41,953 nt of DNA, taken from assembly GCA_004172865.1 (NCBI GenBank), contig SEBV01000021.1:1-41953 (forward strand). The letters are read 5' to 3'. Below, piece by piece: positions 28,892 to 36,647 of this stretch (position 1 is its first letter; every line of letters starts with the position of its first letter). The stretch is from Gammaproteobacteria bacterium. GTDB lineage: Bacteria; Pseudomonadota; Gammaproteobacteria; Pseudomonadales; Cellvibrionaceae. The notes under the pieces were generated by a model, which was not told where the DNA came from, made no database searches, and saw only the letters and a list, made by a program, of their open reading frames with translations. The position numbers and the translations under genes are program-made.

Positions 28892-31800
28892 TTATAAAGA
28901 GTAACGAACCCCCACTAACAGCTGTCTTCCGGTGTGATTGATTTCGCGCGTTAAATCCATAGTGCCGTCACCGGTACCGTAGATGCGCTCTTCTTCATCG
29001 GTCAGGTTAATCATCTCAACAGTGAGCTTTAGGTTGTCGTTCAAGTTGTAAAATGAAGACAGGTCGATGTGCGTCGGGCCGTATTTCATTTCTGCCACAT
29101 GACCATTCCCACCCGGCTTGCTCAGCAGATAACTGTCTCTGTTATTTGCGGATACGCGGACGCCGTATTTATCTTGTTCGTAATAAACAGTGAGGTTGTA
29201 AGAGTTCTTGGATAAACCCGTCATATCGCCCGCGGACACGTGAGTGAAGTTTGTTACGACGCCGGTGTTGGATAAAAATCCTGGCAAAAAGCTGAATGAT
29301 TGTTGATAAATAAGTTCATAACCTTTTACATCAAAACCTTTATTGTCATTGACCGGAATGTAATGCGTGTAAGTCACTTCGCGCGGGTCGGCGTTGTACG
29401 CTGGGTCATATTGCGGATCAGCAAAAATAGCTGCGTAATATTCCGAATCAATCAGTTTTTCAACGATGTCAGTTTTAAGCGATGTAGTAACATTTTTGTA
29501 AAAATAATTTACCGCAAGCAAAGATTCTTCCGCAAAATACCATTCCACACCCAAATCAATATCGTTGGATTCAAATGGTTTTAATCCGGGGTTGCCGAGA
29601 TTGCTTACAGTGCGCGTGGTGTAACCAAAGGTTGGGCCGGCGATATTTAACGAACCCAGATCTGGGCGAGTCATGGTTTTACCGTAAGAAAAACGAGTAA
29701 CTAAATCGTCAGTCACATTCAATGAAAAATTCATAGACGGTAAAAAGTTTTTGTAACTGCGTTCAACATCAACAGCGTTACCGTTGTACCAGGCTTTTGA
29801 CGTTACATTGGTATCAACTGCGCGCACACCAAAGTTTGTTTTGAGCAACATAGTGCCCACGTCGAAATCGCTATTAAATTCCAGGAATGCCGCGAGCGTT
29901 TCTTCACCCACTATCCATGCTGCAGCGAGTTTGTCGGTGTAATCTTTGGCGATAAGATTGGCTTTATAAATTGCGTCGAAATCGGCAACGAGGAATGGTG
30001 TGAGGCTACCGTCTAACCCTGTACCAAAATCTGACACAGGAAAATTTTTGGTGTAACCCACTGCGGAAAATGCCGCAGGATAATTTCCTGTTCCTTCACG
30101 CGATTCAACTTTACGGTCGTTGTAAGCAAGGCCCGTTTTAATTGAGTAGCGGTCCTGCGTAAATTTCAAATCTATCTTGGATGTCAGGTTATCTTTTTTT
30201 ACATAATTCGAACTGTTATTAGCCGTGGTCATGCTGTAATTGGACGGATCATAATAATCATAACCTTCGCCCCAGGACACTTTTGGAATGTCCGCGTTAT
30301 CGCCAAAATCAAACGAATACATATGCGATTTTGAGATGGAATAGAAACGAACTTCTTGTCGATCAGCTTCATTAGTTGCTTTGCCGAGCATTGCATTCAA
30401 TGTGAGCGAATCATTCAGTTTAAATTCGCCCGACAATACATATTGATCGAATTTTGAATCAGACGTTTGATCGCGGCTTTCAATCCAGGATTCCACATCA
30501 TCGAAAGTTCCCGCTTGAATTCGTTTGCCGTCCGGGCTCACAGTAATTGCCAATGGCGTTACTTCATTGTGAGTTAAAAACCATTCCATTGAATTGTAAT
30601 TTAAACGCGTATTCGAAAGCTCGGAGTGCAAAATATCCAAGGTGATTTTTGCATTATCTGTTGGGCGATATTGAAGCGATGCGGTGGCGCCAAGTCGCTC
30701 CTGATCATTACTAAAATAATCCGCGCGCGGTAAACGTGGCGACCACAAACAATTTATAGGCGCTACCGCGCTGCCATTAAGTGCGCAATTACTTTCAGCG
30801 ATATTGCCGGTGATTACCGGCGTTGCGGTGACAGGATAAATATCGTTAGTTGCAATCGGCGTTGTCCAGCGAACTGTTCCGAAACCTTCCTGACGTACCG
30901 TTCTATCTGAATAGGCAACGGAAAATAAAGCACCCAAGGTATTATCTGCAAATGTATTGCTCACCATAAAGGCGAGACGCGGATCATTTTTTTTGCTTAA
31001 GTCGTTGTAACTATCTTGCGCGGATGCTGCGAATTTAAAGCCATCAAAATCAAATGGCTTTGCAGAATATAAATCTACTGTGCCGGCAATGCCGCCTTCT
31101 TCCATTCCTGCAGTTGTTGTTTTTTGAATATCAACACGATTAAAAAGTTCCGATGCAAATACGTGAAAGTCAAACGCACGGCTCGCATTAATAGTTACGC
31201 CGCCAGAATCCAAACCATCGCTGCCTGCAGGAACTTCCATGCCGTTTAGTGTTGTACGCGTGAATGATGGGCTAAAACCGCGCAAAGTAATATTGCGCCC
31301 TTCACCGCCTTCGCGTGAGATGGCGACACCGGGAACACGTTGAATAGATTCGGCGATATTTAAATCAGGAAATTTGCCGATATCTTCGGCCATGATAGTT
31401 TCTTTGGAATTTATTGAATTGCGTTTTTCATCGAGACTTTTGAGGAGCGAACCGCGGTACCCGGTTACTACAAGTTCTTCTACATCTTTTGCTTGCGCTT
31501 CTTGCGCGAGTGCCTGGCTGGTAGCGAGTGAAGACATGGCGAGTAGAACAGCGGTGCTTAATTTATTTTTGTACATCATGGGGTGTTTTCCCTCTAAATC
31601 GTTATTAGTTTGTATAAAGAGCTGCCCATTGTTGCTTACTGATAAGTACAGGCCAGATCCCTCAAGTAGAGTGATAGCGCCGTCTATTACCGAGTAAGTT
31701 CCCACCAGTTCATGCGTTGCAACCGCGACGACTTTATCGTAAGGAACGATGATGGTCAGGTTGGATTGCCGCGCAAATTCGGTGAGCGCAATGTCAGCTC

Positions 31801-31912
31801 TATTTTCGGAAATATTGAACTGAATCATTTGCGATAAATTATTTTTTTCTGCATGCGCCTGATCATTGCAAGCAACAAGAGAAATAATTAATGCAAATAT
31901 TTTCTTATTCAA
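28892..31912 (-). CDS. TonB-dependent receptor with N-terminal STN signalling domain and internal second signal peptide
   Basis: The 1006-residue outer-membrane receptor is of the TIGR01782-like type found in plant-polysaccharide degraders. Residues 1-21 are a signal peptide, and LVAC at 12-15 could instead be a lipobox. Residues about 30-105 form an STN domain, which contacts FecR-type regulators. Residues 113-137 then look like a second complete signal peptide (Met-Met start, basic KNK, hydrophobic core, cleavage after AQA or ALA). The TonB-box region EELVVTGYRGS is near 145, the plug follows with SIQRVPGVAISREGGEGRNITLRGF, and a barrel runs to the end. The chain ends in Leu rather than the usual Phe. 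It probably imports oligosaccharides, perhaps from pectin (inference from neighbours). An ECF-type promoter motif lies upstream. Confidence 0.93.
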   Translation of the reverse strand: MNKKIFALIISLVACNDQAHAEKNNLSQMIQFNISENRADIALTEFARQSNLTIIVPYDKVVAVATHELVGTYSVIDGAITLLEGSGLYLSVSNNGQLFIQTNNDLEGKHPMMYKNKLSTAVLLAMSSLATSQALAQEAQAKDVEELVVTGYRGSLLKSLDEKRNSINSKETIMAEDIGKFPDLNIAESIQRVPGVAISREGGEGRNITLRGFSPSFTRTTLNGMEVPAGSDGLDSGGVTINASRAFDFHVFASELFNRVDIQKTTTAGMEEGGIAGTVDLYSAKPFDFDGFKFAASAQDSYNDLSKKNDPRLAFMVSNTFADNTLGALFSVAYSDRTVRQEGFGTVRWTTPIATNDIYPVTATPVITGNIAESNCALNGSAVAPINCLWSPRLPRADYFSNDQERLGATASLQYRPTDNAKITLDILHSELSNTRLNYNSMEWFLTHNEVTPLAITVSPDGKRIQAGTFDDVESWIESRDQTSDSKFDQYVLSGEFKLNDSLTLNAMLGKATNEADRQEVRFYSISKSHMYSFDFGDNADIPKVSWGEGYDYYDPSNYSMTTANNSSNYVKKDNLTSKIDLKFTQDRYSIKTGLAYNDRKVESREGTGNYPAAFSAVGYTKNFPVSDFGTGLDGSLTPFLVADFDAIYKANLIAKDYTDKLAAAWIVGEETLAAFLEFNSDFDVGTMLLKTNFGVRAVDTNVTSKAWYNGNAVDVERSYKNFLPSMNFSLNVTDDLVTRFSYGKTMTRPDLGSLNIAGPTFGYTTRTVSNLGNPGLKPFESNDIDLGVEWYFAEESLLAVNYFYKNVTTSLKTDIVEKLIDSEYYAAIFADPQYDPAYNADPREVTYTHYIPVNDNKGFDVKGYELIYQQSFSFLPGFLSNTGVVTNFTHVSAGDMTGLSKNSYNLTVYYEQDKYGVRVSANNRDSYLLSKPGGNGHVAEMKYGPTHIDLSSFYNLNDNLKLTVEMINLTDEEERIYGTGDGTMDLTREINHTGRQLLVGVRYSL

Positions 31913-31952
31913 TCAAACATTCTCCGAGGCGGTGTTGAGCCGCCATACACAA

Positions 31953-31974
31953 GACGATTTAGCTTTTTATTTCC
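31953..31974 (-). promoter_or_regulatory. predicted ECF sigma promoter of the TonB receptor gene
   Basis: On the minus strand GGAAAT (31974-31969), 12 bases, CGTC (31956-31953), preceded by TGGA. It has the same layout as the motifs before the sigma factor and pectinesterase genes. It lies about 40 bases before the receptor start. A GGCGG/CCGCC stem lies in the predicted leader. Confidence 0.6.
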
Positions 31975-32016
31975 TCCATGCCGATCAATATTTTTTAATG
32001 AATGGAAGAGTGATGT

Positions 32017-33087
32017 TTACTTCGGTAACGAAAGGTCAATCACTCCGTCGGCTGAACGTGAATAAACAATATTAAAATTTTCTTTTAATGCCAGTAGCAA
32101 ACCATCAACATCACCAGCTTTATATAATCCTGCAATACGCAAATCATTTATGCGCGCATCTTTTACGCGAAACCTTTCCGGTGTGTAGCGGCTGAGTTCA
32201 TTTAATGCATCTTTTAATCGCTCGCCGCGAAAAACCAGATTACCATTACGCCATGAGAGACGATCATTAATTACGGCGGCGGCAATATTTTCCACGGCGG
32301 TTGATTGACTATCGTGAATGCTAAGCTTTTCACCCTGACTTAATTCCTGGATAGCTTTGGTTTGCTGCGCAGTATTTTGCGTTAGCGCTTTCTCTGCAGT
32401 TGTTTTAACTTGCACACGACCTTCAGTCACAATGACATCAAAATTTTGTTCATCTTTTAAATAAACATTAAATGCCGTGCCTACGGCTTCAACAATTCTC
32501 TCGCCAACTTTTACGCGTAGTGGCCGCAATTTATTGTGCGCAACTTCTACCAATAGTTCGCCTTTTTTTAACACCAACAATCGCTCTTTTTCGCTGTAAG
32601 TTACCGAGACTTGCGTGTTGGTATTCAGAAACATTTTAGTGCCATCGGGCAAGCTAACGGTTGAGTGCACGCCAATGCCGGTTTCATAAATAGTATTGGA
32701 AGTTTTGCTGGTGGCCGCTTGTAATGGTTGCTGTAATGCTGCCGGCGTTTTCCAAAACATTGTAGGTGTCAGAATATTTAGCGCGACCACTAATACCAAA
32801 ACTGACGCAGCTACTGCCCAAGCTGTTTTTGCTACGGAGCGTTTGACTGGCTGCGGTACTTGCGCGACGGGCGCATCAAATAATTCTGACAGCACCGAGA
32901 GATTATCCATTCGATCCCACAGTGCAGCCATTTCCAGCAGCGCATCTTTATGTTTGGGATTAATTTTTATCCAGCTGCGCAAGGCTTGGGTTTCCTCGTC
33001 GGACAAGCCGCGATCAAGCCGCGCTACCCAATGACTTGCGTCATCGTAGATTTGGTTTTCGGTTTGGAATTGATAAACATTGCCCAT
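32017..33087 (-). CDS. FecR-family transmembrane anti-sigma/sigma regulator
   Basis: The 356-residue protein has a cytoplasmic N-terminal domain of the DUF4880 type (about 12-60, with WVARLDRGLSDEETQALRSWI.INPKHKDAL), one transmembrane helix (about 87-107), a periplasmic FecR domain (about 135-235, GIGVHSTVSLPDGTKMFLNTNTQVSV), and a C-terminal segment (about 275-356) resembling an STN-type fold. It should hold the ECF sigma factor at the membrane and release it when the receptor's STN domain reports substrate. Its ATG overlaps the sigma-factor stop by one base (TAATG), so it is translationally coupled. The receptor gene follows 104 bases on, with its own promoter motif. Confidence 0.94.
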   Translation of the reverse strand: MGNVYQFQTENQIYDDASHWVARLDRGLSDEETQALRSWIKINPKHKDALLEMAALWDRMDNLSVLSELFDAPVAQVPQPVKRSVAKTAWAVAASVLVLVVALNILTPTMFWKTPAALQQPLQAATSKTSNTIYETGIGVHSTVSLPDGTKMFLNTNTQVSVTYSEKERLLVLKKGELLVEVAHNKLRPLRVKVGERIVEAVGTAFNVYLKDEQNFDVIVTEGRVQVKTTAEKALTQNTAQQTKAIQELSQGEKLSIHDSQSTAVENIAAAVINDRLSWRNGNLVFRGERLKDALNELSRYTPERFRVKDARINDLRIAGLYKAGDVDGLLLALKENFNIVYSRSADGVIDLSLPK

Positions 33088-33644
33088 TACTTTATCTCTT
33101 GGCTTTTGGTGGAGCCTGATTCTTCGTTTGTGCCGGCCACGGCCTGCAACATAAATTGGCGACAGCGGCTCAAGCCCATAGCGATGTGCTTTTCAACCGT
33201 GTTCTCGCTGATATTTAAATTTTCGGCAATTTCTTTTTGGGAATAGCCATACACTTTTTTCAACACGAAAGCCTTTCGGCATTGCAGCGGCAAATGACGG
33301 ACGGCCTCGCAAAAATGCTCGAACTCCTGAGTGGCCGATACCTGGTTGTAGACTTGATCCAGATCCTCCACGTCAGCATCCAAATCAAAACTATCGTCTT
33401 CCATGCTTACGTTGGTGCGTGTCTCGGAGCGCTTGAGATGATCGAGCGCTAAATTGCGTGCAGTTCTGTACAAAAACGAACGCGGGTGCTGAATTTGCAC
33501 GGTTTTTTTAACTGCACAAATGCGTACATAAGTTTCCTGCACTATGTCTTCAATTTCTTTCGGCGGCACTAGACGCGATACGGTGTGCATCAGTCCATTC
33601 CGAATCGACAGGTAAACGCTCTCCAAACTCTCTTTATTACTCAT
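33087..33644 (-). CDS. ECF sigma factor, FecI-like
   Basis: The 185-residue sigma-70 family protein has region 2 (EDIVQETYVRICAVKKTVQIQHPRSFLYRTARNLALDHLKR, about 35-75) and region 4 with its helix-turn-helix (LPLQCRKAFVLKKVYGYSQKEIAENLNISENTVEKHIAMGLSRCR, about 120-165). It has no region 1 or 3, as expected for ECF sigmas. Adjacency and one-base overlap with a FecR gene place it in the FecI-like group used for cell-surface signalling. I chose the ATG at 33644, because the longer frame starts with an unsupported GTG. The motif upstream of it recurs before the receptor and pectinesterase genes, which suggests autoregulation. Confidence 0.94.
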   Translation of the reverse strand: MSNKESLESVYLSIRNGLMHTVSRLVPPKEIEDIVQETYVRICAVKKTVQIQHPRSFLYRTARNLALDHLKRSETRTNVSMEDDSFDLDADVEDLDQVYNQVSATQEFEHFCEAVRHLPLQCRKAFVLKKVYGYSQKEIAENLNISENTVEKHIAMGLSRCRQFMLQAVAGTNEESGSTKSQEIK

Positions 33645-33709
33645 AGTTATTCTTCGGTTTATTATATTGTGGAACACCCGCTGGCTTTTCGGTCGCGGGT
33701 TTGTATCTT

Positions 33710-33731
33710 GACGACTGGCGACAGAAAATCC
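33710..33731 (-). promoter_or_regulatory. predicted ECF sigma promoter of the sigma-FecR operon
   Basis: On the minus strand GGATTT (33731-33726), 12 bases, CGTC (33713-33710), preceded by TGGC and followed by AAGATACAAACC. The block from TGGC to AAACC is nearly repeated before the pectinesterase gene. A perfect 8-bp inverted repeat, GACTGGCG/CGCCAGTC (33713-33720/33731-33738), overlaps it only here. Confidence 0.65.
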
Positions 33732-33795
33732 GCCAGTCGATTAAAAAATAGATTTATACCGTCCTTTTGAGAGTGCTGATTGATTTCGTAATTGG

Positions 33796-34785
33796 CTAGC
33801 GCTTGAATTGCTCGTCTAAAAATCCTATTACCACGGCCGATGCTGGTTTCAGCCAGGGATCGTAAAGCCAGAAGGTGTGCGGAGTGTCCGGCAGTGTAAC
33901 GACTTTGCTGGGAATGCCGTAAATCTTCATTTTGGCGATCATCTCATCCCGCCCAACATGAAAACGCTCTTGCGCACTGTTCAGAAACAACACCGGCGGG
34001 CCGCTTTCACCAACGTAATAAGTGGGTGAGGCATCGTGCCATAAATCGCGTTTTTCGGCATAACTACCGCCAAACCATGCACCAGCGGCAGATTTGCCTT
34101 TTCCCGGTACATCTTCATATTTGCGCGCTTCAGCGGAGGTGAAATCTGAAAGGCCATCAATATTCAAAATTAATTGCGCCGCGCTGGATACACCACTCTC
34201 TTTGGCTTGCGGATCGAAACGCGCTAAATAATTCGTCATCCCCGTCAAACTGGCGATTTGCCCACCCGCCGATGAACCGCCCACCGCGATCCGCTCTGGG
34301 TCAACTTGATACTCTGCCGCATGGCTGCGCAACCAGCGAATCGCGGCTTTAACGTCGTAAATCGCTGCGGGATATTGCGCTTCCGGCGCTAGGCGATAGG
34401 TGATGGTCGCTGCAACATAACCTGCTTTCGCAAGCTCAATGGCAAGCGGCGTTAGATGGGTACGATAACCTGAAATCCAGCCGCCACAGTGAACCAAAAC
34501 AACGCCGGGAGCGGTTTTCGTTTTGGCTTCAGTCAATTTTCTGGGCAGGTAAAGATCCAACTGTAATTCGCGGTTGCCATAGCGCACATAGGTGATATCT
34601 TTTTTCTCTATCACCGCGTCGGGAACTGCTCGGCTAGCAATTTTAATATTGGGAAAACTTTTTACATCCTGCGCGAAACGATTTTCCGCCGTATAGGTGT
34701 TTTCATAAAGTGGAGTTGCCGCAGAGCAGGCGATAAGGCCAGTAACCAGTTGCAGCAAGAGCGAAGCTAAAACGAAATTTTTCAT
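33796..34785 (-). CDS. lipoprotein alpha/beta hydrolase (acetylesterase-like)
   Basis: The 329-residue precursor has a lipobox (LIAC, about residue 20). It then has an esterase/lipase fold of the HSL/CE10-like type: oxyanion-hole motif HCGGW (variant of HGGG), nucleophile in GGSSAGG, and a C-terminal His in DTPHTFW. I chose the ATG at 34785, because the longer frame starts with TTG. It lies 30 bases downstream of the pectinesterase gene in the same direction, so they are co-transcribed. It may remove acetyl or other ester groups from pectin fragments in the periplasm or at the outer membrane (inference). Related hydrolases act on many small esters, so the substrate is uncertain. Confidence 0.88.
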   Translation of the reverse strand: MKNFVLASLLLQLVTGLIACSAATPLYENTYTAENRFAQDVKSFPNIKIASRAVPDAVIEKKDITYVRYGNRELQLDLYLPRKLTEAKTKTAPGVVLVHCGGWISGYRTHLTPLAIELAKAGYVAATITYRLAPEAQYPAAIYDVKAAIRWLRSHAAEYQVDPERIAVGGSSAGGQIASLTGMTNYLARFDPQAKESGVSSAAQLILNIDGLSDFTSAEARKYEDVPGKGKSAAGAWFGGSYAEKRDLWHDASPTYYVGESGPPVLFLNSAQERFHVGRDEMIAKMKIYGIPSKVVTLPDTPHTFWLYDPWLKPASAVVIGFLDEQFKR

Positions 34786-34815
34786 GGCAATACTCAATTG
34801 AAGTAGTGGGAGTTT

Positions 34816-35916
34816 TTATCGCTGCGGGTGCCAATCCCCAAACATTTTTTCTAACGAAAAGTGCGCAACTTGCGCGTCAGAAAGCTGAGGTCGCTGTGAA
34901 TTAATAAGTGCGCCAGGGCCAATGCTTTTGTATTCAAAAAAGCGCGATTCTTCCGGCGTAAAAATTCGACTTTTGGTTCCGTCTGGCGCTGTGCCCGGCA
35001 TGCTCGACCAGCCTTTAGAATTGATATGGCGATCCATAAACGTGCGAATAAATACCGCTTTGCCAATGGCTTTCGGGTCGGCGTAACGGCCATCAGGAAA
35101 ATTAGTGGTGGGATGCCAGGGGCGACCCAGCGTAATGCTGCCATCGGGTACGCCGCTTTCGCGCGCTAACGTGCAATCAAGAAAGGTGAGACCGTATTCC
35201 TGGTTGATATTGGTTGAGGGCGCGGTAATAAAACTTTGTATTTCACCTTCCGCAAAACTGCTATTGCGTGGCCGAGTAATAATCGTGGATTTATCAAACA
35301 CAACCGTGCCCGCACCAAAAATAAAATCTACATTGCCGCTAATAGTGCTTTGGTAAAAGTAAGCGCGGCGACCGTGCGCAAACAGCGTATCTTGATAGCC
35401 ATTCAGCGTTACACGGCTGAAACTCAGCTTGTCGCTATTCGTATCCAGCAAAAGCGCGACGGCCTGGCTATCCGCAATTGCCGTGGGGTCATTACGAGTT
35501 TGTTTGGCATCATTCGCTAAATAATCAAACGTATTTTCAATGGTGAGGTCTGCAATATAAATATTGGTCGCATTAATTGAGACTGTCGCAGAGCCCGGCG
35601 TGCCCCAGGCGTCCTCGCGGTAATGGCGAGAATTGCCAGCATAGGCATCGAAATAAATAATAGTGTTCGCAGCGCCTTCGCCTTTGATCTCAAGGTTAGA
35701 GCGGGTGATATTGAGTTTTTCCTGGTAGCGACCGGGTTTTACTAAAATTCGATAACGCAGGGATTCGTCTTTTGGTGCGGCATCCAAAGCGGCTTGTAAG
35801 CTTGAAAAAGCCCTCGGCGTATTGGCACTTACTATGGCGTCATATTGTTGGGTTTTGTTATTGAGCGTAGTGCAGGCGCTCAGGCCCAGTATTATTAGAA
35901 TAAAAACAATCCGCAT
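34816..35916 (-). CDS. pectin methylesterase (carbohydrate esterase family 8), lipoprotein
   Basis: The 366-residue precursor has a lipobox (LSAC, about residue 15) and a right-handed beta-helix pectinesterase domain. Active-site signatures are GYQDTLFAHG (QD pair with catalytic Asp), GNVDFIFGAG (second Asp) and LGRPWHP (Arg), with the family blocks FSSLQAALDAAP and RILVKPGRYQEKL. It hydrolyses methyl esters of homogalacturonan, leaving pectate and methanol. As a lipoprotein it probably faces the periplasm or cell surface and acts on imported or nearby oligomers. I chose the ATG at 35916: the frame upstream starts with TTG inside the promoter region. Its promoter motif matches that of the locus's own sigma operon. 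Confidence 0.95.
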   Translation of the reverse strand: MRIVFILIILGLSACTTLNNKTQQYDAIVSANTPRAFSSLQAALDAAPKDESLRYRILVKPGRYQEKLNITRSNLEIKGEGAANTIIYFDAYAGNSRHYREDAWGTPGSATVSINATNIYIADLTIENTFDYLANDAKQTRNDPTAIADSQAVALLLDTNSDKLSFSRVTLNGYQDTLFAHGRRAYFYQSTISGNVDFIFGAGTVVFDKSTIITRPRNSSFAEGEIQSFITAPSTNINQEYGLTFLDCTLARESGVPDGSITLGRPWHPTTNFPDGRYADPKAIGKAVFIRTFMDRHINSKGWSSMPGTAPDGTKSRIFTPEESRFFEYKSIGPGALINSQRPQLSDAQVAHFSLEKMFGDWHPQR

Positions 35917-36000
35917 CGCTAAGGGTGCTCCGTTGTGTAAGAAAGTTATTGTTAGATGTTTTGGTGCCGCGTTGAGTTGAGCCAACTAGGTTTGTATCTT

Positions 36001-36022
36001 GACGAAAGACAACCGAGAATCC
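36001..36022 (-). promoter_or_regulatory. predicted ECF sigma promoter of the pectinesterase-esterase operon
   Basis: On the minus strand GGATTC (36022-36017), 12 bases, CGTC (36004-36001), preceded by TGGC and followed by AAGATACAAACC, almost identical to the site before the sigma gene. The predicted leader is about 77 bases. Confidence 0.65.
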
Positions 36023-36080
36023 GCCAGTGGCTTTTTAAAAAGAGTAGTTGTCCTATTGGTTTGAAGAGCGTTTTATATCT

Positions 36081-36647
36081 ATGAAATATGCAGTTTCCGC
36101 GATTGATTTTTTGCGTCCATCACATGAAGTGGCCTATCAGCTTATAGGCGCAACTTTTACGGTAAATGGTGTGGGTGGAATAATTGTAGAGACCGAAGCT
36201 TACGATCAGCTCGATCCCGCATCGCACACATTTGTCGGGCCAACCAAACGCAATGCGGCGATGTTTGGCCCGCCCGGTCGTGCCTATGTGTATCGCTCTT
36301 ACGGAATCCATTGGTGTTTGAATTTTGTGTGCGAAGCTGAAGGGCACGGTTCCGGCGTTTTAATTCGTGCGGTAGAACCAATTGTCGGCTTGCAAACTAT
36401 GTATGATCGGCGCGGCGTTAATAATCATCGCCTGTTATGTTCGGGCCCCGGCAAAGTAGGGCAAGCGCTAGCGATTGTTCACGACTACAATGGCATGCCA
36501 CTCAATCAAGCGCCGTTTGAATTAATTCCCGCTGCAAAATCTGCGGATGTCATTTGCGGGCCGCGCATAGGAATTTCAAAAGCAGTAGATGTTCCCTGGC
36601 GTTTTGGCTTGGCCGGCTCGCCATTTCTAAGCCGGCCTTTTCGCTAA
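36081..36647 (+). CDS. mpg: alkyladenine (3-methyladenine) DNA glycosylase, MPG/AAG family
   Basis: The 188-residue base-excision repair enzyme removes alkylated purines from DNA. Family blocks are: IIVETEAYDQLDPASH (catalytic Glu), GPTKRNAAMFGPPGRAYVYRSYGIHWCLNFV, GVLIRAVEP, and LCSGPGKVGQALAI near the middle. I chose the ATG at 36081 with a weak GAAGAG upstream; the longer frame begins with TTG at 36048. It is divergent from the pectinesterase operon but has no obvious link to it. It ends shortly after the usual C-terminal GPRIGISKAVDVPWRF. Confidence 0.93.
   Translation: MKYAVSAIDFLRPSHEVAYQLIGATFTVNGVGGIIVETEAYDQLDPASHTFVGPTKRNAAMFGPPGRAYVYRSYGIHWCLNFVCEAEGHGSGVLIRAVEPIVGLQTMYDRRGVNNHRLLCSGPGKVGQALAIVHDYNGMPLNQAPFELIPAAKSADVICGPRIGISKAVDVPWRFGLAGSPFLSRPFR

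Follow-up and report, generated by a model that had tools for sequence, protein, structure and literature searches.

Within the 41,953-nucleotide stretch analysed here (the window; contig SEBV01000021.1 of a Cellvibrio-type bacterium with a genome of 5.25 Mb), genes for an extracytoplasmic function (ECF) sigma factor, a FecR-type regulator and a TonB-dependent receptor adjoin a pectinesterase-esterase operon. Similar short sites precede the sigma-fecR operon, the receptor gene and the pectinesterase-esterase operon, all on the minus strand. The locus raises the question of whether these sites are promoters of the sigma factor encoded at 33087..33644, as an earlier note on this DNA had proposed, and whether the regulon is confined to the locus. 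Comparison with related genomes makes it very probable that the three sites are promoters of this sigma factor, in an autoregulated regulon limited to the locus.

The three probable promoter sites

The sites occupy 33710..33735 (sigma-fecR operon, a candidate for autoregulation), 36001..36026 (pectinesterase-esterase operon) and 31953..31978 (receptor gene) of the minus strand; the first two both read TGGCGGATT-N12-TCGTC. The elements described in the earlier note, GGATTT (33731-33726), GGATTC (36022-36017) and GGAAAT (31974-31969), are read directly in the sequence, each followed after exactly 12 bases by CGTC and preceded by TGGC, TGGC and TGGA, respectively. Aligned on CGTC, the sequences are ACTGGCGGATTTTCTGTCGCCAGTCGTCAAG (sigma-fecR), ACTGGCGGATTCTCGGTTGTCTTTCGTCAAG (pectinesterase) and CATGGAGGAAATAAAAAGCTAAATCGTCTTG (receptor). 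The distance from CGTC to the likely start codon is 40 bases for the receptor (TTG 31912), 65 for the sigma factor (ATG 33644) and 84 for the pectinesterase (ATG 35916, picked by eye; the list of open reading frames has TTG 35985), within the 40-90 bases given in the note. The sigma-fecR and pectinesterase sites also have CGTCAAGATACAAACC (16 bases) in common, plus ACTGGCGGATT upstream. A simple consensus scan of the minus strand from 31800 to 36200 found no sigma-70-like promoter.

Genome-wide, the loose pattern GGAWWY-N12-CGTC shows no enrichment: it has 54 matches, and the reversed control has 76. It is therefore no proof by itself and unfit as a defining pattern, which is why relatives were compared.

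Motif upstream of related sigma genes

The comparison used the best 80 of 290 sigma relatives, several of them near-duplicate loci; 79 had at least 60 bases of upstream sequence. GGA-N15-CGTC is present upstream of 66 of these 79, on the other strand in 2 and in about 1 after shuffling, while nine other spacings of GGA and CGTC gave 0 to 7 each. The motif thus accompanies the sigma gene across relatives, which supports its predicted recognition by this ECF sigma factor.

Gibbs sampling was applied to 72 dereplicated regions upstream of sigma genes, with the window left out, to obtain a matrix. The resulting motif is ACTGGCGGAAAA-N10-AATCGTCTT; of eight runs, the four best gave the same motif apart from a shift. 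When the 42-kb window was scanned, the three sites were the top hits, with 26.4 bits (sigma-fecR), 24.3 (pectinesterase) and 22.7 (receptor); the next hit had 11.0 and the best hit of the reversed matrix 10.3. The 80 loci gave 133 hits in total against 6 for the reversed matrix. Beyond the sigma promoters there were 60 hits of at least 14 bits, and 53 of them precede a receptor gene as identified by BLAST; one of the remaining seven lies inside a fecR gene (L056). In these counts the Marinimicrobium locus L002 contributes two sites for one receptor. The 73 hits at sigma sites are not independent because sigma sites served to train the first matrix; the GGA-N15-CGTC counts, the receptor sites and the esterase sites are independent of this training.

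In two ECF promoters of S. meliloti, GGAA stands 21 and 22 bases before CGTC, according to the excerpt of PMC6180224. Here, GGA stands 18 bases before CGTC and the conserved R-G of TRGCGGA stands 21 before. As the latter distance is near the S. meliloti spacing, TRGCGGAWW, beginning upstream of the GGATTT of the earlier note, is the preferred reading of the putative -35 element, and TCGTC that of the -10 element. Among the 73 sigma sites, the bases after GGA resemble AAA in 47 and TTT in 25; in receptor-type sites they resemble AAA in 59 of 61. The two forms are perhaps a code of promoter strength. They were also considered as two sigma specificities, an idea that found no support, since 16 of 51 paired loci mix a TTT-like sigma site with an AAA-like receptor site.

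Restriction to the locus

With TNGNGGAWW-N12-TCGTC the whole genome has five matches, three of them the sites (reversed control 4). The strict pattern TRGNGGAWW-N12-TCGTC has three, all of them the sites (reversed control 2). The many equally good matches across the genome that, according to the earlier note, would speak against the proposal were thus not found. The window copy is also the only close one of its sigma factor, the nearest other match in the genome being 30% identical.

In the genus, the strict pattern matches 54 times across 21 genomes (reversed control 18). Thirty-one lie at most 4.5 kb from the sigma gene, one to three in each of the 14 sigma-bearing genomes out of 14. The remaining 23, a number near the control, comprise 15 elsewhere in sigma-bearing genomes and 8 in seven genomes without a close sigma gene (reversed control 5). 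This clustering at the sigma gene supports the self-contained regulon proposed in the note. From the off-locus rate of 23 in 21 genomes, three strict matches in 4,070 bases have P ~1e-10, a value to be taken as a guide and not as a formal test, because the finding was already known when relatives were used to refine the pattern.

Eight of the 23 off-locus matches were inspected, and five fall within a long frame, on the opposite strand (L161, L164, L165) or the same strand (L166, L167). Downstream of the match in L160 there is only a frame of 99 residues; in L162 no frame of 200 bases or more begins within 300 bases, and L163 is without a hit of 13 bits. Distant regulon members are unsupported by these eight. 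The sites, their conservation and spacing, their restriction in the genome and the domain make-up of the proteins are matters of direct observation.

The sites in related loci

Three congeneric genomes (G008, G003 and G004; loci L147, L148 and L149), chosen for having the trio of sites, encode sigma factors 88, 84 and 78% identical to that of the window. Their gene order, pectinesterase-esterase-sigma-fecR-receptor, is identical, and one site of 22.3 to 28.9 bits stands before each of the three units. A pectinesterase gene lies behind a motif site in the window and in these three genomes. In G004, a PL3 pectate lyase with a carbohydrate-binding module is encoded 2.8 kb beyond the receptor. The note's observation that AAGATACAAACC is common to two window sites holds, but its conservation does not extend to the esterase site: the sequence is partly retained at the sigma site of two of the three relatives (AAGGTACAAAACC, ATGGTACAAAACC; not in L149) and at none of their pectinesterase sites.

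Ten other genomes of the genus have sigma factors 55-64% and receptors 29-37% identical to those of the window. Nine of them carry two strict matches, at the sigma gene and at the receptor gene; G012 has one strict match plus a weaker sigma site. In genus g13, three clustered strict matches occur in four genomes among the matches listed. The three loci read there (L176-L178; sigma 50-51% identical) have strict matches before the sigma gene, the receptor gene and a third gene. This third match precedes a protein of about 2000 residues with GSDH, five F5/8 and ThuA domains in L177 (6611-12847) and L178 (4134-10073), and lies inside the frame start as called in L176. The three receptor-side matches likewise fall inside the receptor frames as called, the one of L178 with less than 14 bits; these starts may have been called too far upstream. 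In L176 and L178, GH16 genes are close by. The third, locus-specific target thus seems to change while the predicted promoter stays. The Gilvimarinus sigma factor of L001 and L179, 73% identical, was seen near a chondroitinase-B-family lyase and a GntR regulator; a pectinesterase search of L001 gave no match.

Alternative explanations

Several ECF sigma factors of the cell could share the sites as members of a wider ECF promoter class, in which case the regulon would not be insulated. The genome does hold ten further hits to the sigma protein. One of them, a FecI-like ECF gene of contig C227 with 27% identity, has GCGGATTC-N12-CGTC upstream (11.9 bits; L083, about 1276). This is a possible sister promoter type, and it leaves room for cross-talk between ECF sigma factors. 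It is one of several observations that count against an insulated regulon tied to pectin. Exact GGA-N15-CGTC is missing in 13 of the 79 sigma relatives, and a strict match occurs at least once in 100 of 144 family genomes, in many cases surely as background. A 112-site, 30-position model in local mode, which scored 150 of 1990 first-look candidates, ranked the sites 1, 2 and 5 of 6 (E 0.013, 0.23 and 1.9); this search alone would therefore not pick out the pectinesterase site. Sites with a single base off, extended to full length from other hits of that model, reach 16.7 (L105) and 16.2 bits (L102) elsewhere in the genome, below the three sites. In L002 the receptor is 75% identical, with no pectinesterase match within 12.5 kb, and the pectin reading is weakened by this. 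Nevertheless, a shared promoter class is rather improbable, given just three strict genome matches, all at the locus, and the near-control number in the seven genomes without a close sigma gene.

A slightly smaller chance belongs to the view that the sigma and receptor sites are genuine and the pectinesterase site is a duplicated remnant, its operon being driven mainly otherwise. That site scores lower in model R1 (11.9 bits), and the long block common to it and the sigma site resembles a recent copy. However, differing sequences precede the pectinesterase gene in three other species with 27.6, 28.3 and 28.9 bits, and sites so divergent yet high-scoring argue that selection favoured them. The sigma site is also overlapped, across its -35 element and spacer, by a perfect 9-base inverted repeat, CGACTGGCG-N10-CGCCAGTCG (33712-33739, minus strand), which might be the true element, an operator for a separate repressor. 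Repeats of 7-9 bases occur at the window and L147 sigma sites and at the L147 and L149 esterase sites, with four stems of at least 7 observed against 1.45 expected. This is very improbable nonetheless: the window esterase and receptor sites have no stem of at least 5, and such stems number 16 across 136 sites against 17.6 in permuted pairs. With no excess at these 136 sites, the repeat finds no support as a general element of the family. Least credible is the coincidence of three unrelated GGA/CGTC pairs; it draws on the unenriched loose pattern, against which stand the P value of the refined pattern and the conservation in relatives, where the same three genes carry the sites in other species. 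As far as sequence comparison can tell, we judge the promoter set formed by these sites to be real and conserved; it belongs to a signalling system that is linked here to pectin enzymes.

Proposed circuit

The receptor would bind a ligand, presumably a pectin fragment. When loaded with ligand, it would act through its periplasmic signalling domain on FecR, and the sigma factor would become active. RNA polymerase carrying it would then use the three sites as promoters and transcribe the sigma-fecR operon, giving a positive feedback that is argued from the motif upstream of the sigma gene, and also the receptor gene and the pectinesterase-esterase operon. Sigma binding, transcription starts, feedback, ligand identity and pectin as the trigger are what we infer from the observed sites and genes.

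Genes of the locus

All genes are on the minus strand. The sigma factor (33087..33644; 185 residues) has regions 2 and 4 (PF04542, PF08281). The FecR-type regulator (32017..33087) matches PF16220 and PF04773 as well as the PupR chain 6ovk_R (E 3.6e-10), and inspection by eye suggests a putative membrane helix. The TonB-dependent receptor (28892..31912; PF07715, PF00593, TIGR01782) has an N-terminal signalling (STN) domain and a listed TTG start; for all receptors considered, the start is the first one of the longest frame. The Pfam STN model gave no match to the window receptor N-terminus, and a FecA model covers residues 19-103 with a score under its curated cut-off. A profile built from the N-termini of the receptors matches the solved signalling domains of PupA, FpvA, PupB, HasR and FecA. 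The predicted structure of the N-terminal 140 residues has a mean predicted local distance difference test score (pLDDT) of 72, with values above 84 in the blocks between residues 31 and 100, and in a fold search residues 29-102 matched the PupB signalling domain 6ovm_B (root-mean-square deviation 0.9, E 4e-7). Together, the sigma factor, FecR and the signalling-domain receptor are a cell-surface signalling (CSS) system of the FecI/FecR/FecA kind. The target operon consists of the pectinesterase (34816..35916; PF01095, with the PemA model under its curated cut-off) and an alpha/beta hydrolase esterase of the BD-FAE kind (33796..34797; PF20434, PF07859).

The receptor leader contains a short hairpin, GGCGG-N7-CCGCC (31928-31944, minus strand), and GCGG...CCGC is visible at its position in L147, L148, L149 and L002. 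A frame of three codons, ATG TTT GAT TGA (31909-31920, minus strand), overlaps with its end the TTG start of the receptor; four relatives show a similarly tiny frame, TTG AAT TGA. The overlap possibly provides translational coupling.

A possible second start within the receptors

A second segment resembling a signal peptide lies between the signalling domain and the TonB box in 51 of 52 dereplicated signalling-domain receptors whose genes follow the motif. It was detected with a home-made finder, not SignalP, that looks for a basic n-region, a hydrophobic core and A-x-A; barrel stretches of the same size were positive in 6 of 409 cases. In the window receptor the segment spans 31502..31579 (minus strand) and begins with ATG 31579-31577, a candidate internal start, upstream of which AGAGGG (31590..31595, minus strand) resembles a Shine-Dalgarno sequence. 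A methionine codon is found at most 24 residues before the hydrophobic core in 47 of the 51 receptors. Pairing of the 20 bases upstream of it with the 16S 3' end reaches -5 kcal/mol in 38 of these 47, against 55 of 530 other methionine codons of these genes; in 200 synonymous shuffles the count averaged 17.7 and never exceeded 24. When a single receptor stood for each 50%-identity cluster, the count was 18 of 22 (500 shuffles: mean 9.3, maximum 14; other methionine codons 26 of 212). For the window receptor alone, the excess over synonymous shuffles is not significant (p 0.22), and in L077 the internal Shine-Dalgarno sequence is weaker than in every synonymous shuffle. The full receptor frame, with starts as called, begins with TTG in the window, the three trio genomes and L002.

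Internal initiation at this codon is probable and would yield a second receptor that lacks the signalling domain. The fuller proposal is put at even chances: one gene would encode two proteins, a weakly started full-length transducer and an internally started, signalling-less transporter with a signal peptide and a Shine-Dalgarno sequence of its own. The segment was also considered as a signal peptidase site releasing the signalling domain, or as a plain linker; the codon-level selection for Shine-Dalgarno pairing fits internal initiation better than cleavage. Three more receptors with a signalling domain that this genome encodes (L168, L171, L172) proved on inspection to lack the segment. Two further signalling-domain receptor fragments of the assembly (L170 on contig C22 and L174 on C220) look Bacteroidota-like by eye and are perhaps contamination, which is reported as 3.56% for this assembly. 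Searches of the open-access literature aimed at an internal receptor start gave, by title and abstract start, nothing on it.

Relation to known systems

The closest textbook parallel is FecI/FecR/FecA of E. coli, which has an ECF sigma factor, a FecR-type regulator, a receptor with a signalling domain and a sigma-driven receptor promoter (excerpt of PMC9249621). Its neighbours are iron transport genes, whereas those in the window are pectin enzyme genes. The same excerpt states that fecIR and hasI are not autoregulated, whereas the motif upstream of the sigma gene here points to autoregulation; non-autoregulation is a trait of E. coli fec and not clearly that of the whole kind. The Pseudomonas systems PupI/PupR/PupB and VreI are similar in their signalling and CSS domains by sequence and in the signalling domain by fold. 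Self-induction is described as unusual among ECF sigma factors in the excerpt of PMC2729926, which adds that VreI may self-induce too, while most of the 79 sigma relatives compared here have the motif upstream.

Carbohydrate-linked control by an ECF sigma factor, an anti-sigma factor and a TonB (SusC) receptor is known from Bacteroides glycan loci (excerpt of PMC10766802). The present system differs in belonging to the Gammaproteobacteria and in its defined TRGCGGAWW-N12-TCGTC promoter. The XCC0120 locus of Xanthomonas resembles the window in having a receptor beside pectin methylesterase and pectate lyase genes, and it is induced by polygalacturonate; the excerpt of PMC1790865 describing it mentions no ECF/FecR pair. 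Searches of the open-access literature gave, by title and abstract start, no account of the promoter or of the pectin system, and the group motifs of the main ECF classification may contain the promoter.

The motif recurs before related regulator and receptor genes in dozens of other gammaproteobacteria. With it, a family of cell-surface-signalling sigma factors of this class would have a promoter code at the level of sequence, making regulons predictable from genomes. Unlike in the textbook iron systems, the regulator very probably acts back on its own gene, and switch-like behaviour is to be expected from such feedback. If the two receptor forms are true, their ratio would set the strength of the feedback of uptake on transcription, and the layout would allow promoter and signalling domain to be set as a cassette before an existing receptor gene. 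If confirmed, this would show one gene separating transport from signalling.

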